Origin: Phytoseiulus persimilis
Taxonomy: Eukaryota; Arthropoda; Arachnida; Mesostigmata; Phytoseiidae
Length of the DNA stretch: 64,000 nt
Assembly: GCA_037576195.1 (NCBI GenBank)
Contig: CM075101.1
Span: forward strand, 3,410,001 to 3,474,000
Direction: 5' to 3'
Shown here: positions 1,601-64,000 of the stretch, piece after piece
Position numbering within the stretch: position 1 is the first letter of the stretch
Layout of the letters: the number at the start of each line of letters is the position of its first letter
Position numbers and translations under genes: made by a program
Notes under the pieces: model-generated
Database searches by the model: none
Told to the model about the DNA's origin: nothing
The model's input: only the letters and a program-made list of their open reading frames with translations

Positions 1601-1632
1601 TGTGAGAATTTTTCCAGGGAAAGTTCCGGAGA

Positions 1633-1953: not shown

Positions 1954-1985
1954 GAACTCCGCTGTCTAAGGACTCCTGAGAGCTC

Positions 1986-4835: not shown

Positions 4836-4920
4836 CAAAGGTCTTTTGACATCGGGAAGCCGGACGCAGTCTCCGATCCGCCTCTGAGTTCCTCGAGGCT
4901 TCGGAACAAGGAGTACGAGG

Positions 4921-10900: not shown

Positions 10901-13900
10901 GTGGTCCATCGACTCGGTACGCCGTGAACCTCTCGGAAAGATAGCCTCCCAAGAAAACCAGTCTCATGGATGAGGCCCACGCAGTTCTGTAACACATACA
11001 TGCTCGGATCGTCCCGCACCCTGTGCTGCCCTCGATTTTTGTAGCTGAGTTGATATTGATCGGCAAGCCCATGGGATTTTGCGATAGAAATGATTCCCCC
11101 TGGAGCTCGAAGTTTCCAAGGTACTCGTCCCAGAGAATGATGATTCTCCTCACTCATAGTCAACGGAGAGTCTGTCAGGGATGATCGCCTCAGTCTCGAG
11201 CTATTCCCCTACAGACCAGAGGCGCCATCATCATTGTCCGGAAAGGGTCTCGGCACTTCCTCGGCATTCTTGGCCTTCGGTCGGGGATTCGAATGAGATA
11301 TATTGTGGCGGATACCCCATCCCAAGAGATGACTTTCTGTCCAGTCGGCGGGCTCCTAGCTGCCTTGGTTTTTTTTTTATAGCATGAAACATCTTCTGGA
11401 TCGATGAAAACCGAGCGAGATTCGGAAACTTAAAATGCTCATATCTCCGTTATCTGAAAGAGTTCAAAGCTCGTAAAGTGCGTTTTGAAAAGCTCGTGAA
11501 TCCAGCTTTCCGATGCTCCACAGTTTCTCAACGATCAATCCGGATACCTTCAAAATGACCATTTTCAAAGCGAATGTTTCTGACCCACTTCCTGGAGGTT
11601 GACCACTTTCTAGCTTGTGTCATATTATGCCCTCCTTCAGTGCGAGCACAATGCGATAAACAGATCGAAAAAATATTTGGGGGACCAAGGTTAAAAAACT
11701 AAATAACTGTCGTTGGTCAGCCTGAATTTATCGAATTTCATGCTCAAACTTCAGAATCAGAATATTTGTTGGTGGAAGGCCCCGAGCCAGGGAAAGTTAT
11801 CTTCTGAGCCGTGGAACACACGCAATCAGCCGCCCAGACCCCCGAAAGTATGATCAGACTGGCCCCGGAATCACCCCTCCAGCTTTGAAAAAGTATGGTC
11901 AGATTGTTCCCGGAACCACCCCTCTAGACTTGGAAAGTGATGGTCAGATCGGTCCCGGAATCACCCCTCCAGGTTTTAAGAAGTATGTTCAGATTGGTCC
12001 CGGACGATGATGCCCGGATTTCATGATGCTCTATTTTCATGCACGCATGTGGCGCGAACTGCAGCATTCGAAGATACGTGGCAACGTGCATCTTCTACCT
12101 GTCTTTCGCCAGGCATGAGCCATGAATTCGGCTGCCGGCATCAGAGCTGACTGACCTCTTCATGTCACCTGGAGACGATACAGAGTCAGAAGACCATGGA
12201 ACCAACACTTGAGGAGCGAGAATAAACGAAACCGCTCCAGACCACCGAACGTGTTCTATTTTTTTGCTCGAGGTCGATTTCTCCGAGAGTGTCTCGGCTC
12301 ATAACATGATTCTTCCTTGCTTTGGGCCTGACACGGTCAGATCATTTTGGAGTTTGTACGGGATCGACCAATCTGACCATACTTTCCGAATCTAGAGGGA
12401 TGATTCCGGGGCCAGTCTGATCATACTTTTGGGGGTCTGGGCGGGTGATTGCGGGCTCGATCTGACCAAACCTTTGAGTGTCTGGGCGGCTGATTCCGTG
12501 TGTTCCACGGCTCAGAATATAATTTTTCCTGGCTCGGGGACTTCCACCATCAAAATTCTGGAGTTTAAGCATGAAATTCGATGAATTCAGGGTGAACAAC
12601 GACAGTTTTCTAACCTCGGTCCCCCAAATATTTTTTCGATCTGTTTATCGACTTGTGCTCGCACTGAAGGGGGGCATAATATGACACAAACTAGAAAGTG
12701 GTCAACCTCCAGGAAGTGGGTTAGAAACATTCACTTTGAAGATGGTCATTTTGAAGGTATTCGAATTGATCGTTGAAAACTCTGAAGGAAGCTTCGGAAA
12801 GCTGCATTCACGAGCTTTCCAAAACCCACTTTATGAGCTCTGAACTCCTTCAGATTACGGAGATATGAGCATTTTGAGTTTCCTAATCTCGCTCGGTTTT
12901 CATCGGTCCAGAAGATGTTTCATGCTATAAAAAAAACCAAGGCAGCTAGGAGCCCGCCGACTGGACAGAAAGTGTTCTCTTGGGATGGGGTATCCGCCAC
13001 AATATATCTCATTCGAATCCCCGACCCAAGGCCAAAAGTGCCGAGACCCTTTCTTGTTGGGGGATTTTTCTCCTACTGGTTATCGATGTTGTTTCGGTCG
13101 AAATGCTTACGAGGGCAGCCAAGCGAGGAGTTGTCGTGTCGACGCGCCTTCTTGATACCTGTGCAGGACCAAGACTATCACGTGTTTTTCCTAATTCGCG
13201 CAGAAGTCATTCATACGAGTTTTCCCTATCGTTATCCGTAAAACTCAATAACAGACTACTTTTGCCAACCTGTATACATGGAGCGGGCCAGTATCACTGG
13301 TAGAGGGAGCGTTCTCAGAGCGACATTGAATTAGGCGTGGGGCTGCCCAAGTCCTTTCGACGTCCTCCTGAATGGACTCAGAGGACTTAAGAGAAATTGA
13401 GGATCGGTGTCAGAATCCTTCCGATCGAGCTATCTGGGGAAATCTTCTCACAATCAATGGATATCATATCTGGATATGAATTCTCGCACGAGCCTCGGAA
13501 AACGTTTCGGTGCATGAAGTCTGCTGTCTGAGGACTCCTTACCATTCACCGTGTCGCGCTCAGAACTAGACTCCCAAGTCGATCGACGCGCGCGATCAAA
13601 GAGTTTATGATAATCCTCTGGTCGTTGCAGGAGGCCTGCGGATCACGTCGCTCGAGGTTCCGTCACTGCTGCGGCTGGGACAACCTACACAGCTGAACTG
13701 CTCATACATTCTTGAGAAAAATGAGCGTGTCTACTCGATCAAGTGGTACAAGGTGGGTGACGATCTTTTTGAGTCTGACGTACTCGCTGAGGAACATGGT
13801 GATTGGGGAGCAGTCCAATGAACTTTGAACTCCACAGTGCAACTTTATTTTCAGGACAAGACGGAGATTTACGCGTATCTCCCCGACGCGAATCCCCCCG

Positions 13901-16900
13901 CGAGGGTGTTCAAAGAGCGAGGGGTGGATATAGATGAAGAAGCCGCTCTCAGTTGGAAGGTATGTATGAGAATGACGACGGAGTCGACGGTGTGGAATTC
14001 GTCCGGGTACGATCGCGGAACCGATTCTTCTTCAGCCACTTCAAACCAATCGGAGTGACCTGATTCTGCGCATGACCGACGCCAATTCCGAAGGTCGTTA
14101 TCGGTGCGAAGTTTCCCTCGAAAGACCTTTCACGACCGAGAAGGCCGAGAAAGTCATGATTGTCTACGGTAAGTTGTCTTCGCCTCGAACAAGCCGCCGC
14201 AAACGAAGAGAGGCCCCGAGTCTGCGGCCAGCCTGAAAATTCGCGAGAGGAGACGAGATTCCATCCACGTGCATTACGTCCCGCCGCTCGTCCCGGAGCC
14301 CGTTCCTCGAGGGCCGGCAGCTGCCGTTGTCGTCAAGACTGTCCTCCCGACCCGTCTCCGCGCCTCCCTCCCTCCCTCCTGTAATTCCCCTCCGATGACT
14401 GACAGACTGGTTGAGTGAAGGAAAGCGAGCAGAGCGAAGTAGACGAAAAGGCAAAAGCATGTGAAAATCGCGCGGAACAACTCTCCCCTCTGGCCAGTCG
14501 GTCGGTCGGTGGGTTCCCGTCCTCCAGGCTGCGTCTCCATAAACACAGCGGTCGTAAACTTCATCTCGACGCTCACTCTCCTCCTTCAGTTCGTTCCCTG
14601 ACACTCGGTCGACGTCGCCTCCTCCTGCTCGGAGCAGCTTTTGCTTCTTGCGATTCCATTCCGTATTCCCTGGCCGTGTTCTACTTGTTTAGTACACAGT
14701 TGCTCGTCTCCGGGCCTCCAGACCCCACTTCCCCTACTCCTGGCTCTTTTTTCCCTCTTCCATGCAGCTCCTCCGTTCACCCGTCGTCGTCGTCGACGTC
14801 GTTCTCAACAACAAAAAGAGTTTTAGCCTGAAGGGTAGTCCTGGACGAAAAACGTGCCCTCCGTCACAAGCCAAGGATCGGGGTTCCGTGAGCGCGGGCT
14901 CGCTTTCAACGGGGCAACCGCGCGAACGAACTACCGGCGAAACTTTAAGTGACTTCCCTCGCGGTTTTCACTCCACACGGCCGTTCTCGATCAGGCGCTC
15001 GTTCCGAGTCTGTAACGCTGGTTCCGACTTTCGTTGCGACGATTCCGTTCTGGCTTCCGTTCTTGTCCTGCTCGCGGCCTGGAGGGAGGGGGGCGTCGGA
15101 AGCTAAATACTGAGTGACAAAGCGAGTGGATATATTCCGAACCTCGGATCCTCCAGCGCTCGACGGTATCTCATTGGGAATCCCCAGTCAACCGAGGGAC
15201 TGTTGTGAGCAGAGTCCTCCGAGATCAATACTCTGCGGATATTGCGAACAAATGTTTCAAAAACGATATCGCCAGTGACAGGTCGTTCTGGCACTTGAAT
15301 AGGCAGCGACGGCGTGAGGTCTTTGTTGAAGACGCTCAGACGATCGTAATGGCCGAAATGTGGGTACAAAGCTCTAAGTAAAGCAAGAGGTCTGGGTGTC
15401 CTTATTTGGGGAGCAATTTCAATATCTTGATGGAGCTTTTGAGAGAGTCGATATGGCCCATGAGAAGACGACGAGGATAAGGCGGCTTCGTGGACAAATA
15501 GATGTTGGACTCTTTCTTTTATTCCGCTGCTTCCTCTCATCTTTCCCGCAGCTTGTGCTCGGAGTCGAGCCTCGCCGACAGCCCATGCAGACGGCGGTTC
15601 CAAACGCATGTCCTATCCCTCAACGACTCAAAACCATCGGCCCGCGCCTTCTGTCCGACCCGCGGTTCGAGAAATACCGGAGTGTGGGTTCGCCGTTTAT
15701 TTCGTTTCTCCTGGTCGTGAATGTTGCCGCTCAAAGAGCGCATGAGCGAGTCTTCCGAAGGACTCCGCAGGTACGCTTTTGACCTCCGCACTTCGGGCTA
15801 AGTATTTTTGTAAGATCGGTCATCAAGTTCTCTCTGGCTGAGGAGGAGTCATCGAACGACTGCTTCAAAGTTCCCTCCCATGTTCGAGCCTCCGGTCGCC
15901 GATGGCGTCTCCAACCTCTCTTCCGCGATATTCTGACGTTGTGGCCATCGAATTATCTCCTAAGATAGTCGGACGCTCCGTTTGCTGCGTGGTTTCCTCC
16001 CTTCCCTCTTCGACAACGACAGACGGTCGGAGATCCAAACACAGAGCTCGGTGTTTTATCAACTTTTTTTTCTGCTCATTTTCAAGTGGAGCGAGCTTTG
16101 CTTCCATTTATCTTCGAATCGATGGAGCGCGGGAACTGGTTGTTCTGAGCGAGCTGGTGGACTGGCATTTCCTTCTCATGGAAGATGTGTTCGCAATGTC
16201 TGCGGCGACTCCACTGTGGCCATGAGACCCTTCCGAGCGAGCGACGGAAGCTGAGAAGAGGAACCGCGACTGGCGTATTCCTCCGAAACAGGAGGCGCCT
16301 CCGAATTGTCGTGGGCTCGATGGAGGAATTCATGGATCCACTGTCGGAATACATTCCCGATCGACGGGTACTGTCTGTCTCCGAGGGCAATCACAGTGTT
16401 GAACCCTCTTCGACGGACCTTCATGCGCCGAAACGGCGCTGCGCGCATGTCGAGACACTGGCCCCGAATTCAATGCAACTCTCGACCGATTGGAGACCTT
16501 TCGAGATATACTAAGGGTGAGCTAGATGGCATATAGAGAGTTTTTCCCGAGCGCTTCCAAGTTTCACTTCGAGCAGCGTCCTTGTTGGAACTTTTCTTGA
16601 GATCGTCGTCGCTCGGATTGACAACTGAGAGCGGAGCGGGAAACAGAAAGGTTTCGAGGATCTCGGAGAGAAGTCAATGGAGCGAGCCACTCGGCTAGAC
16701 ACTGAAACGAACGGGAGGAGAAAACCGTCGGGCGGTGTTCCTCGACGATGTCCATCACGAAACTTCACAAGCCCTGCGAACAATCGATTGAGATCTCTTG
16801 GAAAAGACGCGACTTTTCTTCTTTGTGGGCGCGGCGGAAGCGTCAAACACATCCTGGAAGCGGAATGCGCACCTGGAGTCGGTGCTCGCCGCTGGTTGTT

Positions 16901-19739
16901 CCTGTCATTGGAAAGATAACGGTATGTCGCGAGTGGATGAGTTCCGAGCTTTCGCGCTCTGTCACCCAGGCCCTTGGTCCGACTTGGGCCTAGATCAACA
17001 ACAGCGGAAAAACTGCGCGGCGGACTGCAAGCGGCCAGTGGGTCCTAGAGCCAAACGATTGACAGAGTGAGACGTGGGAGACATCCAACGTGAGGGATAG
17101 CGTGAGAGTGAAAGATAGTAGTTCCCAAAAACGGAAAAGACACTTTTTGATAAATGAACATCCACCGCCACCGCCGTCGCTGCTATACTGTTGTTTTTCG
17201 TCCTCCTTCATCCGGACGGACCGACTGAGGCAACTCTCCGGCCAACGAACGACCAGCACTCGTATCAGATGGGAGCCGGCGAGGGAAAACCTCCCAGTTC
17301 GCTCCCCGAGCACCTTGTCCTCGATCTCATCCGCTACGTCAGACTGTCCACCCGTGTCATTCAGCGGTCTTTGTCTCCTCAGTTCCATCGTCGTCTTCGT
17401 TGTTGTTGACGTCGTTCAACTGCGGAGGAACTTATATATAGCGAGCTGCGTTCAACACAGGAGAACGAACACTTTATCCCATTAGATTAGGTGACGGACG
17501 CGGGGAGGGGCAACGCGCACTGGATCTATCATCTATCAGAAACTGCCGCCGTGCCGCTGGATCGTTGGGCTTAGGAGGGGGCTGGGGAAAGGGGGACGTT
17601 GTTTCGGCGTTTTGAGCGATGGACCGTTCGCTCGCTGAGATCGTCTGTTTCTCATCGTAAGCTCCGGCACGGCTGCCTGTCGATTGAAACTTCTCCATCG
17701 CGGCGGAGTCAGTATTCTATTTGGAGTCAGGATCTCGCGAAATCCGGCTTCGAATCGCTCAGGAGAAAAAATCTCAGTGACTGCACACAGGAGCACCTAC
17801 GATACGGCGCGAAACTGATCAGCCGTTCCGACTTCGAGTGATTCGTGAAACGTAAATGCACTTCGTTGTGCCGCGTTCCCTCTTCCGGCTGATTCGGAGG
17901 CCGAGCGCTGGAACACTGGTCAGCTGCGACGCAGGTGCCAGTCCTCAGATGCCACAGGTGGTCGCTTCGGAGTTCGAAACCCCGTGTGTCTCGCCGCTGC
18001 TGAGCTCTGAACGTTTATACTGAATCGAGAACGGATCTGCACGCGGAAGAGAGTAACTCTGTCCCAAAATATTTTATCATTGTCCTGACACGCGGAGATT
18101 CGGACTTTTCACTCGCGACCCCCTCGGACGATGAGCCTGGTGGCGTGATAGCGCGTCTGGCTTGGAGCGGCGTGTTCGATGGAGCGGAGCCGCGGAAATG
18201 TTTCAAACGTCCTGATAGATGGATAGGTACGTACACACGATGGCTAAGAGGTGTTACGTGTTGTGTTCTAACTCGTTCGCTTCATGTTGTGTAGATGTTC
18301 CCCCCGACGGACCGACCATATCAAACTTGAAGTCTGGCTACGGATCTCGAGACCTTGTGCGCGCAACCTGTTCGTATGGACCCTCCCGGCCTGACGCCAC
18401 CCTTGAGTGGCACATCAACCATATGGCGGTAAGTCACGCAGCAGTGGCTCTCAACTAACTCTTAGCTATCGTTCTCCTCTTTCGGCGGAAGCCACAGCTC
18501 CATTCCACTGAATTGTTGTACAGCAGGCGGCGGTCTCAGCCGGGTCACTCTGAGGCGTCTCCTGACAAATTGGCAGATTTCGAAATGCACTCCAAGCTCT
18601 CAAACGATGATCAGAGGATGATTCGTCTTGGGCGAGGTCACGGCATTCCGGCTCATGATCTTTTTGTCTGTTCCTCTCATGAAACATGCAGGTGATTCCC
18701 GGCGAGAAGGGGCGTCGACTCGAGGAGAACACCGAAATGTTTTCCGATGGGCGTTCGAAAGTCCAGGCCGAACTGAGCTTCAACACATCGCAAACAGACT
18801 TCATCGGAACGAACAACTCTCTGAAGCTGTCCTGTATCTCTCGCCTCAATATCGCCTACAACATCTCGAGCGAGGAAATCGTTGTCCGAAGGAGGTGGGT
18901 GTCCGTTCCTGGATCGAACTGTGGATTCGAGACCCCGGTCGCATTCCGAGTTCTCACGCCCGTAAACCCGTTCCAGGTTCAATGGGCACAACTCCTCGTT
19001 TGACGTCCACAGAGCGGGGCCCTGGAAAACGACGTCGTCGATAGGTCCCAAGGTGGAGTCGAAACCTAACAAGGGAAATCTGAACGGAAACAACAAGCTC
19101 ACTCTCACCTGCTGGTCGGAGGGTGGTGCTGTGCAGAGTCTCAAGTGGTACCGCAACGACAAAGAGGTTCGTGTTTCAGATGCTCGCGTTGGCATCTATC
19201 GATGCCTATCGGGAACTAACAGGTCGTAATAGCAGCTTCGCCCCATGTGCCTGCTCACGTGCCCCATGCCGATCCTCCAGGTGGAACCGAAGTACATCTT
19301 GGATTTGAGCAACACAGAGAAACCGCACGCCGAGACTGTCATGAACATCCGGATGACGGAAGAGATCATCCAGACCAAAACCGAAACTCGCTTCAAATGC
19401 ATCGCAACATATCTGTCCCAACAGGAGAACACCAGGACAGTCGAGCTCCCTCTGATCAGCAGCCTCTACTGTGAGTTTCCCGAGAGTTCGCTTGAAGTCG
19501 AATCGGATTCGCCTCAGCTCCCAGACGTTGCGAATTTGCCGGATCGTGTCTCGAGGCGAAGGGGACAGAACGCTATCACGACTGTCATTTCTAAACGCTT
19601 AACGGCTGAAACTATTCCAGCGCGAGGCTTCCACGTGTTCTCATCCTCGATCGCAGTCTGTGGCCCGAGCACATCTGTTCTCTCGTGCGGGCTTCTGCTG
19701 CTCATCGCCCAACTGCTATGGGATGCGTTTCCGAATTAA
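4921..19739 (+). CDS. beat-like: beat-like gene A: three-Ig beaten path family protein, GPI-type tail (nine exons)
   Basis: Predicted exons: 4921-4990, 13631-13752, 13855-13959, 14036-14168, 18295-18428, 18692-18894, 19013-19166, 19281-19470, 19621-19739. They join in frame to 410 codons including TAA. Order: signal peptide (about 1-23), V-type Ig1 with the beat hallmarks LNCSY, YSIKWYKD, a proline-rich P-ARVF...GVDID strand and EGRYRCEVS; Ig2 with RATCSY, LEWHIN and LKLSC; an Ig3-like domain with LTLTCW, LKWYRND and FKC; then a hydrophobic C-terminus (CGLLLLIAQLLW) typical of GPI signals. Known beats are neuronal surface or secreted proteins that bind Sidestep-family ligands in axon guidance. 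Most have two Ig domains, so the third is unusual. Intron 1 is 8640 bases and carries a foldback element; intron 4 is 4126 bases; the others are 76-263. The exon 6/7 junction (phase 2) is the least certain. Family call is strong; exact orthology is unknown. Confidence 0.82.
5010..5035 (+). repeat. poly(C) tract followed by (TCCC)n
   Basis: Fourteen C residues (5010-5023) run into three TCCC-like units, 19 bases downstream of the exon 1 donor. Confidence 0.8.
10383..10581 (+). other. possible coding exon, secreted-peptide-like, unconfirmed
   Basis: A frame running from a plausible acceptor (ttgctcag at 10382) to TAG at 10579-10581 is rich in Gly, Pro and hydrophobic residues, with three cysteines (RCLVPP, NFCRTFTC). 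An ATTAAA lies about 110 bases downstream. No upstream exon or family was found, and it sits inside gene A intron 1 on the same strand. It may be chance. Confidence 0.15.
10637..10659 (+). repeat. poly(G) tract, 23 G
   Basis: Uninterrupted run of 23 G, the longest homopolymer in the window, inside gene A intron 1. Able in principle to form a G-quadruplex on the sense RNA. Confidence 0.9.
11241..12003 (+). repeat. left arm of foldback element
   Basis: Inverted copy of 12362-13053. The outer end is set where similarity to the opposite arm stops; a short insertion (about 11259-11270) is absent from the right arm. Confidence 0.8.
11847..12002 (+). repeat. 45-base tandem repeats, left inner end
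   Basis: About three and a half copies of a unit near 45 bases, each with agtatgRtcaga, a tcccgga core and accacccctc/atcacccctc. The same units recur inverted in the right arm. Confidence 0.75.
12362..12480 (-). repeat. 45-base tandem repeats, right inner end
   Basis: Reverse-strand copies of the same unit (agtatggtcagattgg and agtatgatcagactgg landmarks), fewer and more diverged than on the left. Confidence 0.65.
12362..13053 (-). repeat. right arm of foldback element
   Basis: Reverse complement of 11241-12003. Similarity stops at ccctttc (13053) on the outside. Confidence 0.8.
13054..13630. other. end of gene A intron 1
   Basis: No feature recognised apart from the acceptor gtcgttgcag ending at 13630. 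Confidence 0.5.
13631..13752 (+). CDS. beat-like: gene A exon 2: first half of Ig1
   Basis: Starts in phase 1 (G|GA GGC CTG). Encodes the B strand with its cysteine in an NCS sequon and the C-strand tryptophan in YSIKWYK. Ends in phase 0 at AAG|GTGGGT. In gene B this exon and the next are one. Confidence 0.8.
13855..13959 (+). CDS. beat-like: gene A exon 3: middle of Ig1
   Basis: After acceptor ttttcag. Encodes DKTEIYAYLPDANPPARVF and GVDID, the C'-C'' region diagnostic of beat Ig1, then about eight extra residues (EEAALSWK) not seen in gene B. Ends in phase 0 at AAG|GTATGT. Confidence 0.8.
14036..14168 (+). CDS. beat-like: gene A exon 4: end of Ig1
   Basis: After acceptor ttcttcttcag. Encodes SDLILRMTD and EGRYRCEVS with the second Ig cysteine, ending TACG|GTAAGT in phase 1. 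It is 133 bases, exactly the length of the matching exon in gene B. Confidence 0.85.
14169..18294. other. intron 4 of gene A (between Ig1 and Ig2)
   Basis: 4126 bases. Contains pyrimidine-rich stretches (14340-14400, 14700-14800) but no gene or element I recognise. Gene B has a similarly long intron (4560 bases) at the same place and phase. Confidence 0.6.
18295..18428 (+). CDS. beat-like: gene A exon 5: first half of Ig2
   Basis: Acceptor gtgtag, phase 1. Encodes DVPPDGPTISNLKSGY, RATCSY and LEWHINHMA, matching the beat Ig2 start, and ends in phase 0 at GCG|GTAAGT. Confidence 0.85.
18692..18894 (+). CDS. beat-like: gene A exon 6: second half of Ig2
   Basis: Acceptor catgcag. Encodes an acidic linker, VQAELSFNTSQTDF and LKLSCISRLN with the Ig2 C-terminal cysteine, then SSEEIVVRR. 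The proposed donor AG|GTGGGT leaves phase 2; the gene B counterpart ends in phase 1, so this end may be off by a few bases. Confidence 0.75.
19013..19166 (+). CDS. beat-like: gene A exon 7: first half of Ig3-like domain
   Basis: Acceptor cgtccacag matches the phase 2 donor and keeps the frame open into LTLTCW and LKWYRNDKE. Ends in phase 0 at GAG|GTTCGT, splitting the Ig just after its tryptophan strand as in Ig2. Confidence 0.7.
19281..19470 (+). CDS. beat-like: gene A exon 8: second half of Ig3-like domain
   Basis: Acceptor gatcctccag. Encodes VEPKYILDLSNTEK, the TRFKCIATYL strand with the closing cysteine and ENTRTVELPLISSLY. Ends in phase 1 at T|GTGAGT. Confidence 0.8.
19621..19739 (+). 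CDS. beat-like: gene A exon 9: hydrophobic GPI-type tail and stop
   Basis: Acceptor actattccag, phase 1. Encodes a serine-rich stretch, then CGLLLLIAQLLW and a short polar end before TAA. The short tail after the hydrophobic run favours GPI attachment over a transmembrane protein with a cytoplasmic domain. Confidence 0.75.
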
Positions 19740-20733: not shown

Positions 20734-20739
20734 AATAAA
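20734..20739 (+). terminator. candidate poly(A) signal of gene A
   Basis: AATAAA 995 bases after the gene A stop, the nearest hexamer found by eye. Confidence 0.35.
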
Positions 20740-24119: not shown

Positions 24120-24132
24120 CCCCCCCCCCCCC
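24120..24132 (+). repeat. poly(C) tract, 13 C
   Basis: Uninterrupted C run read directly. Confidence 0.85.
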
Positions 24133-25094: not shown

Positions 25095-25108
25095 CCCCCC
25101 CCCCCCCC
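25095..25108 (+). repeat. poly(C) tract, 14 C
   Basis: Uninterrupted C run read directly. Confidence 0.85.
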
Positions 25109-27373: not shown

Positions 27374-27402
27374 ACACACACACACACACACACACACACA
27401 CA
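27374..27402 (+). repeat. (AC)n microsatellite
   Basis: About 14 AC units followed by three AAGC units. A likely polymorphic locus. Confidence 0.95.
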
Positions 27403-33400: not shown

Positions 33401-35472
33401 GCCAGGGCTCCGGCGGCGTTTTCCGGTTGGGTGGTGATCAATCTCTTCAGAAACGAACAACACAACATGCTCGCAGCGATGCGAGAGCAACGGGAGTAAG
33501 TGAGGTATTTGCCTCGCTCGCCCACTCCCCCCTGTCGGTTGCGCCGCGGCCGCCGTCCTTTCTTTTGCTTGATGTAGTGAGCTCATGAAGACGAATGGCT
33601 TAGTTCGTGGTTGTCTGGCTTATGAAGAGCTCTGATGGATCGTGCCACAGATCAGCGAAGGTCTTCTTCGCAATCCAGTCGCAGCAAATTGCGGTTCGGT
33701 CCTCGCATCTCACTTGGCGTTCAGCCCGCTTGCTGGCTCGTTCCCGACCGACGCAGAGATCGTCTCGAGCAGCGATTCGAACTTTTCCAGGAAGAACTGG
33801 GCGTGAAATTTCCAAGTGACATTCGTTCGGGAATGCCCTTCTCATTCAGAACCGACTTACCGAGGACGGTATCCGACAACGGAGGGGATCCCGCTGGTCT
33901 CGAAAACTGGGCTCGCGTGGACTGCAGATTGAGCTCCACGCGGATGCAGTTGAGAGAAGCCGACGAAACAGGATGAAGTTTCGGAGGAAAGTAAGAAGCG
34001 GCTGGTGGATTCGCCGGGGCTTGATCCATCCGCGTGGTGACGCGTCAGGATCGCAGAGTGGCCGTGGATCTCTAAGAGCGGATTCGTGTCGGAGGCGAAT
34101 CTCCCTCAGGGTTTGGTTCGGTTCCGCATATCATATGGCATGGCTCCACGAGTTCCACCGGCAGCAACCGACGACGACTCTGCCTCCCCGCATTTTCCGC
34201 TGCTGGAATTCGCCTCCCGAGCCGGAGATCCCGATTGCGCTGGATCACATCAGCAACACGTCAACACCTCTCACGCGAGGGTAGCGTCGTGGGTGCTTTA
34301 TTCACTGCGACAACAAATGCCGGTTCGTAATAGTTCATTCGTCTCGGAAGTCATCCGAGTACATCTCGATGCCATAGCTCCGAGAGCTCGCTCCTCCGGT
34401 CGGCACACTACGATCGGGAGAAATTTTGTATTTTGTTCTGCCTCAAGGCGGATGAGGCACTTCGAAGTTGTACATTATTGTCGCCAGAAGACGACGTGCA
34501 GAACATCACCCGTTGCCTCCCGCCTGCATTGTTTTGTTTCCCGAACCCAATCCCGAGCATCCGGGATCGATGCTCTCCGTGCGTCGCAGTTTCTTCTGCA
34601 TAATGATACGCTTTGTATTCTCTGTCTACGTTCTCCGCATCTTGAGTCTATTTGTGAGTCTATTCCTCTGCTCGTCAGTTCGGCCTGCCGAGCACGGTCG
34701 TCGTCGACTAGGACGGACCTGGGTCGGGTGTTCTCCTCAATCTGCTCAGTTATGCTTCGATGGAATCAGTGCATTCGGCTTTTAATCCGATACGCCGGCG
34801 CAAGCGAGTTTCCGATGCAGACGCAGAGATATCGAGCCGCGCTCGATGGCGATGTCAGACGGGGGCTCCGCATGCAGCGCTCGCGTACGCTTTTCCCCGC
34901 TGCTCGGAGCTCTCACCTTCCTGTATCGCGTCCCTCGCACACTTTTCTCCGACGATCGTCGACGGGTTTCCACCGCTGCTCTGGCAGCAGGACAGCGACG
35001 AAATAGCTGTCGTATTGTCGACAGGCCGTATCGTCTTCATGAAACATGAGTCGGTCCGTGTGTGCGCTACTCCGTAAGGCCGGAAATTATGTGCGTGTAA
35101 TCACGGTCATCAGGGTTCTTGGGAGCTTCCGTCGTCGGATTCTTCCTGAGAGTGTCTTCGGCTGCGCAGGGAGAGCTCTGGCGACAGCCATTGAAGTGTC
35201 TGTCGCCTTTGTTTTCCTTTATTGACAATGTTGCGCCGACAAGCTGATTCATTCAAACGCGCTGCGGGTCTTGTCAGAACCAGCAATCGCGCGAAATTCG
35301 AACACTCGTCCGCGTGACCGGATCTATCACGAACGACAGTCGCCTCAACCGATGCGAAAAACTCAGAACCAGTCGCAGGGATGAAGCGTTGCGTCGACGG
35401 CGACAAATGTATCAATGATTCTGTCAGCGATAACGATTGCTGTTCCGCGGTAGTGCCAGAGGTAGGGGGAGA

Positions 35473-35484
35473 GGGGGGGGGGGG
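35473..35484 (+). repeat. poly(G) tract, 12 G
   Basis: Uninterrupted G run read directly. Confidence 0.85.
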
Positions 35485-54500: not shown

Positions 54501-56104
54501 GTTTTGATCAAAAAAAAAAACAGGGTTGAAGACAGGGTTTGATCCCGCGAGACATCATTGGAGCTGTGAAGTTTTCCCCAGGAGCTCTGTTCAACAGAGG
54601 ATGAGACTTCGCGCAACCTTGTGTTCAACCATATTCAGAGAGGAGATGGATACAAAAATGGTCGAGCGCAATCATCGGGTAACGTACTCCCCATATACAA
54701 TATGTATGGAATCGTCTCAGGTCCTAAATCAATTCTCAGTGGATGCAGGCTTCTGGACTGAGGTCCGACGAGCCCGGGTGCAAAAAGAGATGTATTCGCG
54801 ATCCAGTGTGAAGAATCCTGCGCAGGTTCGCCAACAACGATTGACTGAATTTTGATCTCGCGGATTATTCTCGAGCGATGCGGAAAGTTCAACAATCTGG
54901 GAGATGATCAGCGCGTCACGCTGCTAATGAGCTTGGTGACCCCCTGAGAGAACCTGATGCGTCGATGAAGCGATTACGGGACGCCCTCTCGTTGGGCCCA
55001 CGCAGCGGTCACTATTTCGCGGGATCGATCTGAGGTCCGCGGCTTAGTTTATTGTGAGAATGCCACTTTGTTGATTCATTCGAAACATTCCTGAATATGC
55101 TGGTCACCGTCGAACTTGTGGGACCCGTTCCGACTTTGTATTGATCCAGGGCGCTAGATCGCTCGGTTTCGATAGGCAGTGTTTTGAGTTATTTTTCTCG
55201 GTGCGCAAAGCTGCCTCTAGATTAAATATATGGTGCCGGAAGAGACGCGGGGCTAGATCCTGATCTCATTGACCGCTTTGAATGAAGGATCTGGCAAAAC
55301 CGACGTGTGGATGTTTTTTTTTTTCCACCGCGAGGAAGATTGTACTCTCCCTCGACAATAGTGAGAGTTTTCTAGACTCTTCAGAGCTGTGTCTGCGCGT
55401 AACTCTGTCGGACCGGATGATGGTTCACGACGCGATGCGGTGACCCTGCCTTCGTTGGAGCTGTCCCTTCCCAAATTTGGTCCTTCGACTCTGTGGATGC
55501 GCCGTTGGAAGCCACTGAACTGCAGAGCTTCGAGCACAATACTCGGATCGCCTCACACGGGATTCTGAGAGACTGGTCATCGCCGCGGTCCACGGACGGT
55601 ACATTCCCTCGTGTGGCAATATCGCAGCCACAGTGGAGCGGGAACCTTCTGGTGTACTGCGTTCACCTCGTGAGTCAACGATTTTTTTCTCGAAGACAGG
55701 GAAAAAGGTATACGTGAACGCTCTCTAATCTTTTAGGCTTCTCCACTAGTTTCGAATCCCTATTTGATTTTCGCAAATTGAAGACCGCTTTTGAAGGAGG
55801 CAATAAAGTTCATCTGATGCTAGGAAATATCCCGACCGATCATCTCTTCATAGCTCTACTACGCTATGACCGAATCCTGCTTCGCCGGAATTCCACTGAG
55901 ATGGACCGAGCCCCGAGAGTACTCGGAGTACATCTCAATACCTCCGGTCAGGGAACGTCTTGGTCGTGAGGGTTCCGTCCCTCATTTAGTCGTGCACGGA
56001 GCTGGTTTCTCTCATCATAAGTTAGGGCGATGTGAAGAAAAATGACGCCAAAACTCTGAATCCGTTGAAGTTCTGTCAGGGCTCTGATGTGTCCCGGGCA
56101 GAAT
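45535..56104. other. intergenic, no gene recognised
   Basis: Only short frames of mixed composition. METLFIPLLKLLRA followed by GTGAGA at 48061-48102 looks like a signal-peptide exon, but no partner was found. A-rich and T-rich short tracts occur at 54510 and 55315. Confidence 0.4.
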
Positions 56105-56110
56105 TTTATT
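56105..56110 (-). terminator. poly(A) signal on the minus strand
   Basis: AATAAA on the minus strand, 87 bases after the stop of the 56197-56553 frame and about 1.04 kb after the stop of gene B. It could end either transcript. Confidence 0.4.
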
Positions 56111-56196
56111 GAAAATCGTTTCATGTTGACACACAAGGGTCGGCAATGGTCGCTCCGTATGCAGGGCTCCCCTGTTCCAACTTACATATTGTATCT

Positions 56197-56553
56197 CTAC
56201 TTCATCGCTCTAATTGAAGTCAGTAATAGCATCGGAACAGTATTTACACAGCGGAACCTCTGCCCCGCATTCAAACAGTTCATTTTCATCGTTTCAGCTT
56301 TCACATCGTCGATCATTGTATCTAGTCTCGTACTGATATCCATTTTGAACACGATTCGAGAAAATTCACCGAAAGTTTGTTTGTCGACTTTCTTCGAAAC
56401 GTCTGCCACACCGGCAGTAATGTTCTTCATACGGCTCGAAAATTCACAAAGCGTTTCTTCTTGTATTTTATCTCCCTCCCGATGCTTGGAAAGTCTTTTG
56501 GCAAGCTTGCAGCCTTCTCTCAAACTCTTTCCGGGGGTAAACCGACTCTAACA
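56197..56553 (-). CDS. unassigned open frame, possible terminal exon
   Basis: From a possible acceptor (gtctgatgttag) the frame runs about 118 codons to TAG. The peptide is lysine-rich and looks helical, with four cysteines in REGCKL, TLCEF, KMNC and FRCVN and a sequon at KNITAG. Composition is unlike most chance frames here and the sequence is more AT-rich than its surroundings. No ATG opens it in frame; a nearby MRMFVGGLGLM start lies in another frame. AATAAA follows 87 bases downstream. It could be the last exon of a separate small gene, or a chance frame within the 3' UTR of gene B. No family recognised. Confidence 0.3.
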
Positions 56554-57145
56554 TCAGACCAAGGCCCCCGACAAACATCCGCATCGTCGTTGATCTCTTC
56601 CTCTCATGCCGAATGAAACTCCCACCGCCAAGCTCTCAGGAGGTTGCACCTTGAGCATAAAGTTCGTTTGTGGAGATCATGAGATGGAAAAATCAACATA
56701 GGCTACAAGAATTCATGGAATATCTCTCGAATCGCCGGAGCGATTCATGACTGTGCGTGTTAGAGAATCCAAAACTCGACGCGACAACATCGGCGCGTAT
56801 GTCCCATAGATGCCGATTCGTAGGAACAACCGATCACCAACAGTGACAGTTGAGCAGCGCCCCCACCATGTGGTTTCGGGGAAATTCCGAGGGCTACGAG
56901 TCTCAGATGCCTGATCTCACGAATCAGATAAGATTTTTCGCTGTTCCATCTGACACTTCGATTTTGAGCTTTCCATCTTTTCCTGTTCCTCCGCGGAGTG
57001 GAGGGTGATCTCATGGAAGCCTCCGGTCGCGGTTCGAATCATGGGTGGAATTCCAACTTTTCCGGGTCGCGTTTCATGTATCACGACGAACATCTCTCCT
57101 AACCGGTGTGCGGACTCTTTCCGGACGCTCTGTGGTCGACACTTC

Positions 57146-57231
57146 CTAAACGTGATATTGAAGAAGTGTTACGAGAGCCACGGCCGCGATCGGCAGGGTG
57201 GAGCATAAACTCGCAGACCGGGAACTTTGTG
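57146..57231 (-). CDS. beat-like: gene B last exon: GPI-type tail and stop
   Basis: Acceptor gaatttcag, phase 1. Encodes QSSRSASLC, then TLPIAAVALVTLLQYHV and TAG. It matches the tail of gene A in position, phase and character. Confidence 0.75.
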
Positions 57232-60200
57232 CTGAAATTCGAACGATGGCTGATAGGGAATCACTCGAAGAATGTGGGCGAACAGCGCCGACTGGACAAC
57301 CGGCGGACTCACCCGAAAAACGGTGATACAGCACGTGCGCCGACGCCTCGGCTTTCCGAACGATCCGCTCACTCCGGAGCATCGAGCACCGCAGCCTCAG
57401 CTCGCTCCTCTGGAAGTTGTCCTGAGTGAGAGGCACCCGGAGCTGGAGCTCGGTCTCTTTCACGGAGTTCGAGGTATCGATTTCCACAATCGGGTACGAC
57501 GAGGTCCATTCGGACGCCTGAATCCAAAATCACAGCCGTTGAGCGCATCGGCTTGAACATTCATCGTGACAAGTATGCGACTGATACTCACGTTCCGATC
57601 GTTGACAAACCACGTGAGATTGTCGCGATGTCCGAGAGCGTCCCGCGTTTTGCACGAGACGACGAGGCTCTCCTGCTTACGATAGTTGCTGTACAGGCCC
57701 GCGATTTGCGGTCCGCCCATTTCAGTCCCTGCGGGAGCGCAGGAATATTTCTGATGAGCGAATCGAGAAACAGGACTCGGAAATCACGGGATGGTCTCCT
57801 GTGTTTCCGATCCATCGATAGCTTACCTCGGATCACCTGGAGGCGGCTGCTGTTCGCTCGGCTCTTCACCCGCACCTCTTCGCTGTTGAGTTGGAACGTC
57901 ATTGCGACTTTTCCTCGACATTGAAGTTTGAGTTTTCCCTTCGAGTCTACGTGCTTGGGTTGAACGCGGAACAAGAGGACCTTGACCATGGTAACACGAC
58001 CGTCGTCGTGGACGATGTCGTTATGAATTTCCATGTCTTTCCGCACCTAATCTCAGAGGCAGATAATTCTCCATGAGCATGGCACAGGATCAGGACGCTG
58101 TTAGTAATCGCTTGATCGGAATTCGTCGCGGGTTTCTCGCGGATCCCCTCACCCTAGTATCGTTGATCAGCCAAGTGAGCCACCGAGTAGTTCCTTTGAC
58201 AGGACCGAACCGACATGTGACGTTGAGGAGCTCGTTCATATGGTATGGAGTGCTTTTCAGATTGATGAGGGTTGGATCGCCATCCGGAACATCTGGAAGG
58301 AGATTTGTGTTGAGGATTGTTGCCACTACTATTCCGGAAACGTCTTCTTGAGTAGAATCGGCGAAAGCACCGCCTCCCAATCCGCAAAATTGAGCGTTGA
58401 ACGTTTCCCACCCGTTCGCGCCCCCTCACAATCAGTCAAGCTCTCTCTCTCTGGTGAGATCGCAAGGAATAGAGATTCCGCGGTCCGTTTACTCTTGCCC
58501 CATCCGATGCCCTCCTTGTGAGCAGCAGCTCGTTCGGAGTTCCCCTTGAGCGCAGACCGGTCCGCCCCTCCCCGTCCTTCGGCAACCGTACCCCCCCCCC
58601 TTTCCCCTCTCGTGTCTTTAGTCCAGACCGCCTCGCTCCCCTCGATGCTTCTGTCAGCAGCTAGGATGATGCGTCTTGGGTAAAAAGCCGAATTGTGCCG
58701 CGGCAGCGGCGCAGAAGAGACCGACGACAAGATGGGTTTGGGTGGGCAGGCGGGGCAGGGGGGCATAGAAGCTAAATACGGCCCACGGACCATGACGCCG
58801 CGCCGCTCAGAACTAAAAAGCTCAGATATAATCCATTAGTCGGGTGGTCGAGCTGGCGGATCCTTTTTCGTTTGTTCTCTCCTTGCGTTCCTGCCTCAGT
58901 GCTTACTTGCTTGCTTGCCTGTCCTTGCACCCTACCTCCTTCTTTGGCACCCGGTTCTTCGGGGGCTGAGGGGGGGGGGGGCGACAAGCCCACGCGAAGA
59001 ATTGCGCCTTCCCCCTCCTGTCCCCCAGACACTCTCGGCCTTCCTGCTGACGTCGCAGAGCTCTCATCAGCTCACCACGGCGGAGCCGATCTACCAAGTC
59101 ATGAAGCGTTAAGGAGGACACCGAAACGAGGAAAAATACGAGACGATTCTTCCCCTCCTCTCTGCGCTATCCAGACCTCGATTCTCGCTCCGTCTGAGGG
59201 CAGATCCACTTTTCCAGGCCGTCTCTACACTCCGCGCCGCCATCGGGCGCTCTGTTCTCGTTTGTTCCTCTGCGCTCAGCATCAAGCGGAAGGTTTTCTT
59301 GCTTTTTCATCTCTGCCGGCGGTCGGATTGCGCTCGGAGCTCGTCTGGAGAAGAGTGGCTAGATCGAGCTCAACCAATGCCCTTCATCGTTCGCTGACTC
59401 GGCGCAATTAAACAGGAGGTTCTGAGGTGGATTTCGAGCCATTGCCTCATTCCGATCCTTCAATCTGTCGCGGATAACTTCAAGCTGCGGGGAAACCGAT
59501 GTGACTGAGCTAACCGGAGCCCGCTCGTGTTCCAACTCCTCCAGCATCCCGGAATCGCTCATCGCCAGAAATCCAGAACTCATGATTGTCATACCAAGAC
59601 TAGATTGTATGATCGGCGCTATCAGGTGGAGATTTTTGGAATGTGCGAGAGAAGAAATACTCTAACATAGCCGATGACCCAATTTTAATGGGGAGAGACT
59701 TCTCAGAAATGGTAAGACTGCTAGAAATCACCTCGCAGTTTGGCGATGACGCGAAACTAACATTCAATCCATCAGAAGGTGCGATTGTGGTATTCGAACG
59801 GATGATCTTCGCGAGACTTCCCGGCGCATAAGGAAAGAATAAGGAAAGCCAAGATGATCACGAAAAAATCACTCGGCAAATCATCCCCGTGGATCCTAGA
59901 ACTCTCGTTGAGACATAGAATGAACTCATGCGGAAACCTCGTCATATGAAAAGTCTTGTGACCGTGCTCATGCCTCCCAGTCATCTGTTTGTGTTTCGAG
60001 TTTCTGTGGAATGCTCAAGTTTTGAAGAGCCTTGCCCCGTTGGACTACGTCGATCAAACGCATGATTGCGGAGGCATCTCTCCTGGGACTGTCAGTGCCT
60101 CCCGAGGTGGAGAATTGCGGAAAATTCCCGGATCGGAAGTCAGCCGAAGATTCTGGGATTCGACACCTCGCTCATGGTCTTTGAGTGGATCCGACAACAA

Positions 60201-63200
60201 GAACCAGAGATGCGACCAAGAGTCGAGAGATATGTCTCACGCGAACAGGGCAATATCGATGCCGAATCACGCAATCGATCGACCGCGAAGGAGCCGTAAG
60301 AGTGCGACGTCTACGTCATACCGAGCTTTTCTACCAGTCCTGTTCTTCGCCGATCCCGTCCGTTTCACCTGGACGAATTAGGCAGGGTGGGAGTGCCAGC
60401 GATGGCACTAGATGAAAGCGACCCGAGACCGCTGAATGCGAGTTCCCGATTCTCAGGGCAGAGTCAGCGACAGTTCGGACCTCGTTCGGAACCTGTTTCG
60501 ACGTGAGATCTCGTCTAGGAGAGACTGAAAAGAAACCATGTCCGAGCGACGTTTTCAGTTAGCCTTTTAGCGAGTTAGTCAGTCAGGGGGAGGAGTCGGG
60601 GACAGTGAAAACAGACCGGACGATGTCGAACGAGTGTCGTGCTCCCCGCACCGGGCAGTTGGCCCACGCCGAACAGCCACTAAGCTGTGGGCCCTAATTT
60701 CCCTTGAGGTCGGTCGGTCGGTCGCTCTCTCTCTCTCTCGGTAAAACGGTCCTCTGTGGCCTTCAAAAGCGAATTAAAGAAGCTCCCCGTCCTCCCCGCG
60801 AGATCGGGGCTTCCACGTCGCGAGGTGGACTGTCATTTAACTAAAGCTCAGTTCACGACATCCTGCCAGATTCCCTAATGGATGAATTATTTTTCGTCTC
60901 GAGTTCCGGAACACCCACAGGCAAATCCAATCGCGAGGCTCAAGTCATCGGGGATTTCCAAGGCGAGCTCTGAGGTCAGACAGAAGCGGGTTGCGGGAAA
61001 TCGCCCTCAATGTTTGAGGGTTCCCCTGAAACATCTCTCTCTCTCTGTTCCGTTTCCTGAACGTCTGAGACTGTGAGGAATGAATGCAGTGAACGATCTC
61101 CATCCAAACCGCGAGATTCTGCGTGCACTCGCTCTGGAGCAGGGGCGTACCCATCTCTTTTTTTTGGAGGGAAGGGGCGAGGATGTGATAATCATCATCG
61201 CAATCAACATGGTTTCAAAACCTGTGAGGATTTCCCTGATAAGACTGATTCTTAGCGGAACTATTTCGTCCATCGAAGTAGAATATGATATCCACCCTTC
61301 CCCATATCTTCGGAGAGTTTTTTTTTTGGGGGGGGGGGGGGGGTATGGCCCCCTTACGCGCCCCTTCCCCCCTGGGTACGCCCTTGCTCTATAGTTGGAC
61401 TCTCTAGTTCGGCTGACTGAGCTCGCAATCCTGAAGCAGCAATTGCATGCACCTCGACCCTCAACGCTGGCGGAGCGCGCGAAGATGCACGAGGTCAACT
61501 CGTGAGATCTGCAGGCTAGCGCAGTGCGGCGCAGAATGGAATGCGTTCGACTGCAGTAGAACCTCAATCATTCCAACCTTCCGTATGCTCACCTCGACTA
61601 TTCCAATTCCAATCATGGTACAACCCGATTATTTCAACCTCGAATATTCCAAGCTTCAATTATTTCAAGCTCTCTCCGTATCGATCACTTGATATTATCG
61701 AGGTTGAACTGTATTTACAAATCGGATGTCTCCCGGTGGGCAGAATCTGCGTTCACCCCTGATCATACCCAGTTCCTGACAACGAAACACAGGAAGCCGC
61801 CCTTGGTCTGGGTCCGAGAACTTGAAACCCATGAGCCCCACTGAGTTCAACCCTAATGGGTGATGAACGTTGTGTTCCTCGAGAAGTACAGAGGCACTAG
61901 TGTCAAGTGATGCTTCGAAAGATCTCGAGTCCGAGAATCGGCTCTCGGACTCACTTTACGCCTGAATCGTCCCGTTGTGACCATGAGGAGTACCCTTATG
62001 AACGAGCGTAGGTTGGACTCAAAGCCCACCAACGGAGCGTCCTGGTTTCGGATGTTGTGGAGCTACGGGGAAGACACGGATAGCATTCAGGAACTCCCCA
62101 CCAGCGCCGACAATACTCGCCCCCTCGTTTTTCTCAGACTTTCGCGCAAAGCATCGATCCTTGCCGATCGCTGGGTACAATCCTCGCGTTATCAGCCGAC
62201 TCCTCGAGATTGGCCTCCGTTCAGATTTCGTTGGAGTCGGCTTTAGAAGCGAATCACGGTCGCGGAAGCGGAGTTATACGATTCACAAGCGGATCTCTCA
62301 GGCTCATAGTCAGATCAATCGCGCGCGCGGTCGGATCGGCACCGGTTCCGGACTCGAGTGGCATCGGGCCCGAGAACTAGAACCCAGTTGCCGCCCCGGT
62401 TTCGGAGCCGGGTGATAGCGACTCCAAGTTGCAAGGAGCTTCACAACGTTTTTCATTTAAGATCGTTTCGGGCCATTTCAGATTGAGTATGAGTTATCGC
62501 GGTAGACGTTCTCGAGAAAACCTCACGGGTTGCTCCTCCAATCTCGCGTAGCCTCGGAGCATAGTTGTGGCTATGAATGCGTTTTCGAGTTCCCCAAATC
62601 GAGCCCCCTCGAGGCCGCCGCGGCCACGTGTTCCCAGATCAGTGAGCGAATCCGATCGCAGTGGGACCTTGATCTTGGATTACTCATTTGCGCGTTATCG
62701 TTACGACCCCGCATCCCAGAGGCCCTTCTCCTGAAACCCCCGATCGGTCCACAGTTTGCGGAAATGCGCGCCTGCAATGAAGCTCCTCCTTCTAGCGGGC
62801 TAACACTGAAACCACAAAAAGATATGAGCAAAGCTGCGAACCTTCCACTCACCGTAGACCAGCAGATCCTTTTTTGCGCGCTCAGTCGTGAAAGAACCTT
62901 CCTGTGAAACCTCGCACCGGTAGCGGCCGTCCGACATGGCATCGGTGGAGCGCAAGAAGAGATCGCTCACAGTCGACTGCCCCAGCTGGAACGGAGTCGG
63001 GAATACTTGACAATCGGAAACAAGGGACCGTTTCCGCATGGACGTGCTTCCAGTTGAGCCTTGGGGCCACGGAGCTCACCACCAACACGGTACGAACGTT
63101 AAATGAACGAATCACGGTCGAGAGTCGCCCCAGAGCCCGGGTCAGAACAGGATCTGTTGGAGGTCGTCGATTACGCTTGGACGATGATTAGCAGACCATT

Positions 63201-63667
63201 TGATTTGGGATAGGCTGTAGAGGCTTTGATGAGCGCTATGAAACCTTACATCGCGGCAGAGATCATTGGGAGGGCTCTCATTGGAATTCGACATTTCGGA
63301 GCGGACCCGGGCACGTTTCATGCAACTCTCATGCGGCTCAGAAACCCTTCGATTCGAGAACGTTGTTCACCATCATCTGCGAGGACCGAGCAGACGATGG
63401 CGCAGTCTTTTGTCCGTCGTTCGCCTGATTCATTCCGAGCGATCTCCGTGCAACTCACGTCAATGTCCACTCCTGGATGCTGGAACACTTTGGTTGCAGG
63501 AACTTCGTCAGGGATGTGGGAGTATATTTCGACGTTGTCCTTGTACCACTTGACCGAGTAGAGTCTCTCGCCCCGATCCAAAGCATACGAACAGTTGAGC
63601 CAGGTCGGCTCCCCAAACCGAACTAGGGAGGGGACTCCGAGTTGAGTCAGACGTAGACTGCTGACAC
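57146..63667 (-). CDS. beat-like: beat-like gene B: three-Ig beaten path family protein, GPI-type tail (5' end outside window)
   Basis: Predicted minus-strand exons: 63667-63459, 62985-62853, 58292-58153, 58046-57827, 57728-57592, 57517-57313, 57231-57146. They join in frame to 376 codons including TAG, entering in phase 1 from a signal exon not present in the last 333 bases. Order: Ig1 with WLNCSYA, LYSVKWYKD, P-ATKVF-HPGVDID and DGRYRCEVS; Ig2 with NVTCRF, LTWLINDT and LKLQC; Ig3 with VVSCKT, LTWFVNDR and LRLRC; then a hydrophobic tail (LPIAAVALVTLL) typical of GPI signals. The YSVKWYK and KVF...G-D strands are beat hallmarks. Beats act at neuronal surfaces with Sidestep-family ligands. Convergent with gene A and alike in structure, but Ig1 has no intron after KWYK. 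Which of the named beats it matches is unknown. Confidence 0.83.
57313..57517 (-). CDS. beat-like: gene B: second half of Ig3
   Basis: Acceptor ttggattcag, phase 0. Encodes EIDTSNSVKETELQLRVPL, the closing LRLRC strand and HVLYHRFS. Ends in phase 1 at G|GTGAGT. Confidence 0.8.
57592..57728 (-). CDS. beat-like: gene B: first half of Ig3
   Basis: Acceptor ctcccgcag, phase 1. Encodes EMGGPQIAGLYSNY, VVSCKT and LTWFVNDRN and ends in phase 0 at AAC|GTGAGT. The residue spacing follows the Ig2 first-half exon closely (G-P-I-L-S-Y, then V-C, then LTW--ND). Confidence 0.82.
57827..58046 (-). CDS. beat-like: gene B: second half of Ig2
   Basis: Acceptor gagattag, phase 0. Encodes the MVKVLLFRVQPKHV strand and KLKLQCRGKVAMTF with the closing cysteine, then LNSEEVRVKS and LQVIR. 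Ends in phase 1 at G|GTAAGC. Confidence 0.8.
58153..58292 (-). CDS. beat-like: gene B: first half of Ig2
   Basis: Acceptor ctccttccag, phase 1. Encodes DVPDGDPTLINLKS, LLNVTCRF and WLTWLINDTR, ending in phase 0 at AGG|GTGAGG. Confidence 0.83.
58591..58600 (+). repeat. poly(C) tract, 10 C
   Basis: Uninterrupted C run inside the gene B intron. Confidence 0.8.
58970..58981 (+). repeat. poly(G) tract, 12 G
   Basis: Uninterrupted G run inside the gene B intron. Confidence 0.85.
59610..60299 (+). mobile_element. possible decayed LTR-retroelement fragments
   Basis: Two open pieces. The frame ending at 59831 has PILMGRDFSEM, like the strand after the retropepsin active site in gypsy/BEL polyproteins (LGRDF). 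The frame ending at 60299 has FDTSLMVFEWIRQQ followed by PRVERYV, loosely like the RNase H segment of BEL/Pao elements (TDS-VL-WI, then F-NRV). No LTRs, no active-site DTG and no continuous pol were found. Weak resemblance only. Confidence 0.22.
60708..60739 (+). repeat. (GGTC)n followed by (CT)n
   Basis: About four GGTC units, then about seven CT units, within the gene B intron. Confidence 0.85.
61132..61394. mobile_element. hAT-type MITE with 8-base target-site duplication
   Basis: A 247-base element at 61140-61386. Its ends are CAGGGGCGTACCCA and, inverted, CAAGGGCGTACCCA (13 of 14 match). The flanks CTCTGGAG (61132-61139) and CTCTATAG (61387-61394) agree at 6 of 8 positions, as expected for an aged hAT duplication. 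Inside both ends lie T-rich then G-rich runs, including 16 G at 61328-61343, a common look of non-autonomous hAT elements. No coding capacity. It lies in the gene B intron. Confidence 0.7.
61328..61343 (+). repeat. poly(G) tract, 16 G, inside the MITE
   Basis: Read directly; preceded by nine or more T. Confidence 0.9.
61554..61711. mobile_element. pogo/Tigger-type MITE
   Basis: A 158-base AT-rich element. One end reads CAGTAGAACCTCAATCATTC and the other, inverted, CAGTTCAACCTCGATAATAT, the CAGT--AACCTCGATTAT form typical of pogo-like elements. The interior repeats short variants of acctcgaatattccaa. The right flank is TA; the left is TG where TA is expected, a single change. No transposase. 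About 170 bases from the hAT MITE in the same intron. Confidence 0.55.
61714..62852. other. remaining part of gene B intron
   Basis: No feature recognised between the pogo-type MITE and the exon at 62853. Confidence 0.5.
62853..62985 (-). CDS. beat-like: gene B: end of Ig1
   Basis: Acceptor ccgttccag, phase 0. Encodes LGQSTVSDLFLRSTD, DGRYRCEVSQE and a TTERAKKDLLVY strand, ending G|GTGAGT in phase 1. At 133 bases it equals gene A exon 4. Confidence 0.85.
63459..63667 (-). CDS. beat-like: gene B: first part of Ig1
   Basis: Acceptor gattcgcag, phase 1, so a signal-peptide exon must lie upstream. Encodes the B-strand cysteine in LNCSYA, LYSVKWYKDNVEIY, IPDEVPATKVF and HPGVDID without interruption. 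Ends in phase 0 at GAC|GTGAGT. Confidence 0.85.
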
Positions 63668-64000
63668 CTGCGAATCGAAGAAAAAATCAGAACCAACGGC
63701 GATGCCCCGACGCTCTCGGAGAATATGATCGGATCCGGCCCGCGTGAGGAGAAGAGGCGGGGGGAAGGGGGGGGGCGGACGCGTACGATTTCGCTCTCTC
63801 GTCTGTTCAACTGGGGCCACTTCACGATTTGCGCAAATGGGGGAAATCGGGTTCGCTGCGTGACATTTGAGATCTTGATTACGTTTTACGTGGGGAAATC
63901 CGTTGCGCGGGCGGAAATGGAAGCCGAAAACGGAGATATTCAGGAGGACGGGAGAGGTTCCAACAAAAGTCGAGGATGAAGAATCGCCTCGCCGGACGGA
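63668..64000. other. gene B intron running to window edge
   Basis: No signal-peptide exon is visible on the minus strand in these 333 bases. A G-rich run lies near 63750-63778. Confidence 0.6.

Follow-up and report, generated by a model that had tools for sequence, protein, structure and literature searches.

Two Beat-related genes of Phytoseiulus persimilis with a predicted third Ig domain, possibly derived from Ig2

Pairs of Beat and Side proteins guide motor axons in flies, where the Beat family has been described with two immunoglobulin (Ig) domains. The Drosophila Beats are presented as proteins with two immunoglobulin superfamily (IgSF) domains (PMC5578738), and the interaction of Beat with Side is stated to need the first Ig domain of each protein (PMC9743010). 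Beyond Ig2, Beat-Ia carries a flexible Gly/Ser linker, a potential transmembrane segment (residues 324-343) and a Cys-rich end, and cleavage has been suggested to expose a glycosylphosphatidylinositol (GPI) signal (PMC9743010). The members of the Sidestep family are, like the Beats, IgSF proteins acting in the same pathway, but they have five Ig domains, one fibronectin type III (FnIII) domain and a transmembrane segment (PMC5578738; PMC9743010), unlike the genes described below. Here we analyzed a stretch of 64,000 nucleotides (the window) from the genome of Phytoseiulus persimilis, corresponding to bases 3,410,001-3,474,000 of contig C1 (CM075101.1) in an assembly of 181 Mb and 127 contigs. 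It harbors two Beat-like genes, gene A on the plus strand and gene B on the minus strand.

Because a third Ig-like domain follows Ig2 in both genes, we classify A and B as Beat-related three-Ig genes, outside the described two-Ig form of the Beats. The explanation that we favor, with moderate confidence, is that they are paralogues in which Ig3 goes back to an ancient tandem duplication of the Ig2 region that preceded their separation, and that they encode tethered proteins with a partner-facing Ig1 and a stalk made of Ig2 and Ig3. If this is true, the occurrence of the three-Ig form in two paralogues would mean that receptor height, and not just the binding face, has evolved, and it would open a route to testing how receptor length affects cell-cell contact. 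Judging by titles and the starts of abstracts, we recognized no three-Ig Beat among the papers listed by searches of one open-access library, in which subscription papers are mostly missing, so that an absence is not shown; at most, this hints that three-Ig Beats are undescribed.

Gene structure and relation to the Beats

All exons of both genes are predictions read from the genomic sequence. Gene B comprises three domains, Ig1, Ig2 and Ig3, encoded by two exons each with AG/GT borders:

63459..63667, minus strand: Ig1 first exon, phase 1 in and 0 out; Ig1 and Ig2 together match Beat-Vb and Beat-Vc
62853..62985, minus strand: Ig1 second exon with GRYRCEVS, phase 0 in and 1 out
58153..58292, minus strand: Ig2 first exon (Ig2a), phase 1 in and 0 out, ending LTWLINDTR before a GTGAGG donor
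57827..58046, minus strand: Ig2 second exon (Ig2b), phase 0 in and 1 out, donor G/GTAAGC
57592..57728, minus strand: Ig3 first exon (Ig3a), phase 1 in and 0 out, ending LTWFVNDRN before a GTGAGT donor
57313..57517, minus strand: Ig3 second exon (Ig3b), phase 0 in, given up to a phase-1 donor G/GTGAGT
57146..57312, minus strand: read-through tail of Ig3b, with a linker, a hydrophobic end and a stop; coding status uncertain

Ig2 and Ig3 are each interrupted by a phase-0 intron six residues past the core Trp, and their second halves share the motif L-x-L-x-C (LKLQC and LRLRC). The initial annotation had proposed the phases 1-0 and 0-1 for both exon pairs, the split after the Trp and the likeness of the second halves. 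These features were all recovered, with AG/GT at the eight borders of the four Ig2 and Ig3 exons. The phase-1 exit of Ig3b is a prediction, since the frame stays open past the donor, through a hydrophobic end, to a stop at 57148-57146.

Gene A (window positions 13631-19739) is also Beat-like and shows the domain order of gene B:

13631..13752, plus strand: Ig1 exon 1, ending KWYK, phase 0
13855..13959, plus strand: Ig1 exon 2, read from sequence
14036..14168, plus strand: Ig1 exon 3 with GRYRCEVS, phase 1 out
18295..18428, plus strand: Ig2 first exon, phase 1 in and 0 out, ending six residues after the Trp
18692..18894, plus strand: Ig2 second exon, entering in phase 0 and, with the top-scoring donor, leaving in phase 2
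19013..19166, plus strand: Ig3 first exon, leaving in phase 0 and, with the top-scoring acceptor, entering in phase 2, ending six residues after the Trp; start uncertain
19281..19470, plus strand: Ig3 second exon, up to a phase-1 GTGAGT donor
19471..19739, plus strand: read-through tail continuing that exon, with a linker, a hydrophobic end and a stop; coding status uncertain

Its Ig1 has an extra phase-0 intron directly after KWYK. The two genes are convergent, with 37 kb between their read-through stops, and are 39% identical across the three domains, 8 residues of A's Ig1 being omitted from the sequence compared. The initial annotation had treated Ig3 as a feature of gene B. A third Ig-like domain is indeed present there, but since gene A has one too, it is not peculiar to gene B.

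The same annotation had described a symmetric pair of exons, entering and leaving in phase 1. Splice scores were based on frequency tables; those for the B Ig1a acceptor and for the B Ig1b, B Ig2b and A Ig1b donors, read one to three bases out of place, were left out. In gene A, the sole donor past Ig2 scoring above 0 is in phase 2 (AG/GTGGGT, 4.7). Phase-2 acceptors lie at 19013 (2.6) and 18977 (1.3), and the phase-1 acceptors near Ig3 score only -3.2 and -5.6. Because the only well-scoring Ig2-Ig3 junction of gene A is thus predicted to be in phase 2, the 1-1 symmetry is found in gene B only and is not conserved in gene A.

To place the genes in a family, the joined Ig1 and Ig2 of B were searched against the PDB, where Drosophila Beat-Vb (9np7, E 1.4e-13) and Beat-Vc (9nsf, E 2.1e-13) were the only two distinct sequences with E values of at most 0.1. 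Their alignment runs the length of Ig1 and of the Ig2 first half, with the motifs W-Y-K and Y-R-C-E-V-S and the P-x-x-x-P start of Ig2 in common. This bears out the Beat-like identity that had been proposed for gene B: its Ig1 and Ig2 are homologous to those of the Beats, and gene A is judged through gene B. These two PDB chains, of 254 and 240 residues, are the Beats of other arthropods to which our comparison extends. Unlike them and the two-Ig organization of the fly family, both genes have a third Ig-like domain.

In Pfam, Ig1 of B matches Ig_2 above the cut-off (E 7.7e-13, with the three-domain protein as query), and its Ig2 matches the same family weakly (0.0018). Ig2 of A matches PF08205 with 22 bits and its joined Ig3 with 21.4 bits, both over the cut-off of 21; the latter also matches Ig_3 at E 1.9e-5, below that family's cut-off. 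A Cys in the first half, a Trp and a Cys in the second half are present in Ig3 of both genes. From this Cys-Trp-Cys pattern and from its likeness to Ig2 of B and Ig3 of A, Ig3 of B appears to be an Ig domain.

Origin of the third domain

In what follows, A1-A3 and B1-B3 denote Ig1-Ig3 of genes A and B, and z values derive from shuffles. As controls, we used eight Ig domains of the same genome (L001-L008), taken from 30 places matched by PF08205 and lacking the beat motifs searched for. Since they were found as unsplit Ig exons, they provide no test of intron position.

B2 and B3 aligned with a score of 65, where shuffled sequences averaged 25.7 (z 9.2, 0 of 1000 shuffles), so that the likeness of the two domains goes beyond chance. 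In contrast, z was 0.3 for B1 against B3 and ranged from -1.3 to 1.5 for B3 against the controls. Similarly, B3 matched an Ig2 profile at E 6.7e-6 and an Ig1 profile at only 0.44, and in profile-profile comparisons P was 7.8e-7 for Ig2 against Ig3, 0.041 for Ig1 against Ig3 and 0.33 for Ig1 against Ig2. B2 itself showed no resemblance to the controls (z -1.1 to 1.5). Because B3 resembles B2 and none of the eight other Ig domains of the genome, a copied Ig2 is on balance the best reading for Ig3 of gene B.

A3 is connected to this origin less directly. It matches B3 with a score of 57 (z 5.9, 0 of 1000 shuffles), and the central intron six residues past the last Trp is common to all four Ig2 and Ig3 domains and found in neither of the two Ig1 domains, where the exon ends 2 residues after the last Trp in A and 29 after it in B. 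Many Ig domains meet at phase-1 borders, and these carry little weight as evidence. The likeness of A3 to B3, its position after Ig2 and its intron six residues past the Trp would link it to Ig2, and we infer that A3 and B3 have the same origin.

Ig3 probably predates the duplication that gave rise to A and B, because gene A carries it with the same central split. A2 and B2 align with a score of 125, well above that of B2 with B3, and no DNA repeat of at least 24 bases was found within 13000-24000 or within 56000-64000, exon pairs included. Provided that A3 and B3 share an origin, the closeness of A2 and B2 and the lack of a DNA repeat suit a duplication before the A/B split. A domain tree had been proposed as a check. 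For the four beat domains alone it favored (A2,B2),(A3,B3), the other two trees having an approximately unbiased (AU) p of 0.034 each. With the eight controls added, the four beat domains stood against the controls with a bootstrap of 81. In the best topology A2 and B2 formed a pair (bootstrap 93), to which B3 was joined next, A3 following beside the controls, and forcing A3 and B3 together cost 0.65 log units.

Several observations weigh against an Ig2 origin shared by both genes. This best topology does not unite A3 with B3 but places A3 with the controls (bootstrap 78), and none of six constraints was rejected (AU p 0.0757 to 0.708); all being above 0.05, the tree with controls excludes nothing. 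Taken alone, A3 resembles other Ig domains at least as much as it resembles Ig2: z is 1.9 against A2 and 1.6 against B2 but 3.7 against each of A1 and B1, and E is 0.029 with the Ig2 profile but 0.00068, over 19 columns, with the Ig1 profile. Against the controls, z of A3 ranges from -0.3 to 8.1, the best partner, L006, standing above Ig2; likeness to controls is seen for A2 as well (z 1.3 to 7.1). B3, for its part, has no Pfam Ig match, and at E up to 10 Pfam gave no Ig match for gene B from Ig2b through its tail or for the Ig3 second exon plus tail of A. Finally, the joined Ig2 and Ig3 of B had no clear Beat match among the six PDB sequences with E values of 1 or less. The best was SIRP-alpha (0.009) and the last Beat-Vb, whose match at 0.72, of the first half of B3 on Beat-Vb Ig2, is not significant. 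The proposal that Ig3 is a duplicated Ig2 in a three-Ig Beat is supported on balance for gene B, by sequence and central intron, while A3 by itself lies nearer to Ig1 or to a control than to Ig2.

These points would be accommodated if Ig3, at least that of A, came by exon shuffling, either from Ig1 or out of a different Ig gene, the common fold mimicking kinship with Ig2. Indeed, A3 has better matches than Ig2 in L006, in the Ig1 profile and in Ig_3, the last of these short of its cut-off, and the tree with controls allows A3 or B3 outside the beat clade. However, the L006 fragment stops short of the second Cys, so that its match with A3 covers only part of the domain, and it speaks against exon shuffling that B3 matches B2 and 0 of the 8 controls, that A3 matches B3, and that the phase-0 split six residues past the Trp is common to all four Ig2 and Ig3 domains. 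We consider this origin rather unlikely, though worth keeping in mind. It is improbable, too, that B3 is a gene-specific duplicate of B2 with A3 of separate origin. The B2-B3 score is slightly over that of A3 with B3, and pairing B2 with B3 has an AU p of 0.248 in the tree with controls, but the same pairing has one of 0.034 in the quartet tree, and both genes are split at the same residue. Moreover, since the A2-B2 score is far over that of B2 with B3, B3 would not have left B2 after the A/B split unless its evolution had sped up.

An Ig2 duplication would also be compatible with a different use of the exons, gene B having its Ig2 pair and its Ig3 pair as alternatives of which each transcript contains one, to give two-Ig proteins. 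Both pairs enter and can exit in phase 1, so that either could be skipped in frame. In gene A, however, skipping Ig2 would break the frame because Ig1 exits in phase 1 and the best Ig2-Ig3 junction is in phase 2. Most interchangeable exons are not strongly diverged, unlike Ig2 and Ig3. We thus regard alternative exons as quite unlikely and retain an old duplication of the Ig2 region, with both copies in the same protein, as our preferred explanation.

C termini and proposed arrangement at the cell surface

Both Ig3 second exons contain a phase-1 GTGAGT, 24 residues past the last Cys in B and 23 in A; at the window rate, the chance that GTRAGT falls in a given phase somewhere among 13 codon positions is about 0.4% per gene, as a post hoc estimate. 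Beyond this donor the frame is open for another 55 (B) and 89 (A) codons, with a hydrophobic stretch before the stop. Equally hydrophobic ends occur in 1 (A) and 11 (B) of the 847 open reading frames (ORFs) of at least 50 amino acids in the window, the tails being counted in. Since the exon can be read past the donor into a hydrophobic end, the last Ig3 exon of both genes could either be terminal or end in two ways. The GC content at third codon positions weighs against a tethered protein: it is 0.44 and 0.56 in the tails, compared to 0.57-0.81 in all 13 exon pieces, which speaks for an intron. A composite last exon would fit both the hydrophobic ends and this low value. Left unspliced, it would give a membrane-anchored protein, and spliced, another C terminus, so that a tether-or-release switch like the one in antibody heavy chains would have been kept in two diverged paralogues; we offer this as a tentative idea that is probably not correct. 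Secreted and membrane-bound isoforms have been reported for Drosophila Beats (PMC5578738).

A C-terminal exon common to A and B was sought by comparing the ORFs of 19301-36000 (plus strand) with those of 57520-36001 (minus strand), but the best candidate (E 0.003, 23 residues, among many comparisons) was rejected. The same search upstream (1-13760 against 64000-62801) returned one strong pair, Ig1 itself. Among hexamers resembling poly(A) signals, the nearest AATAAA lies roughly 1 kb downstream of the read-through stop in either gene (56110 and 20734), with a TATAAA at 20375, which is not informative.

GPI-anchored proteins have a hydrophobic C-terminal stretch following a small-residue site. 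We hypothesize that each of the two proteins would be tethered at the cell surface via its hydrophobic C terminus, by a GPI-type anchor or similar, and that Ig1 would contact a Side-like partner, by analogy with the fly. Ig2 and Ig3 would form a stalk in which Ig3, taking the place of the flexible linker of fly Beat-Ia, lengthens or stiffens the structure and sets the distance between Ig1 and the membrane. Unlike Beat-Ia, A and B have their third Ig domain after Ig2 and read-through tails that are not Cys-rich. The initial annotation had suggested that Ig3 extends the ligand-binding arm. A role in binding is unlikely; because fly Beat and Side interact by their first Ig domains (PMC9743010), Ig3 is more likely a part of the stalk.

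Some minor observations concern other loci and the sequence around the genes. L001, L003, L004 and L007, which look Side-like, share the motif SGSRPPAVI-x-W, and L004 and L007 are closely alike, with about 0.31 Mb between them on contig C3. In the window, a tandem array of a 45-base unit (11845-12004; 3.6 copies, 79% matches) is located about 1.6 kb upstream of Ig1 of gene A, and an AC dinucleotide run of 14.5 copies lies between the two genes (27374-27402).
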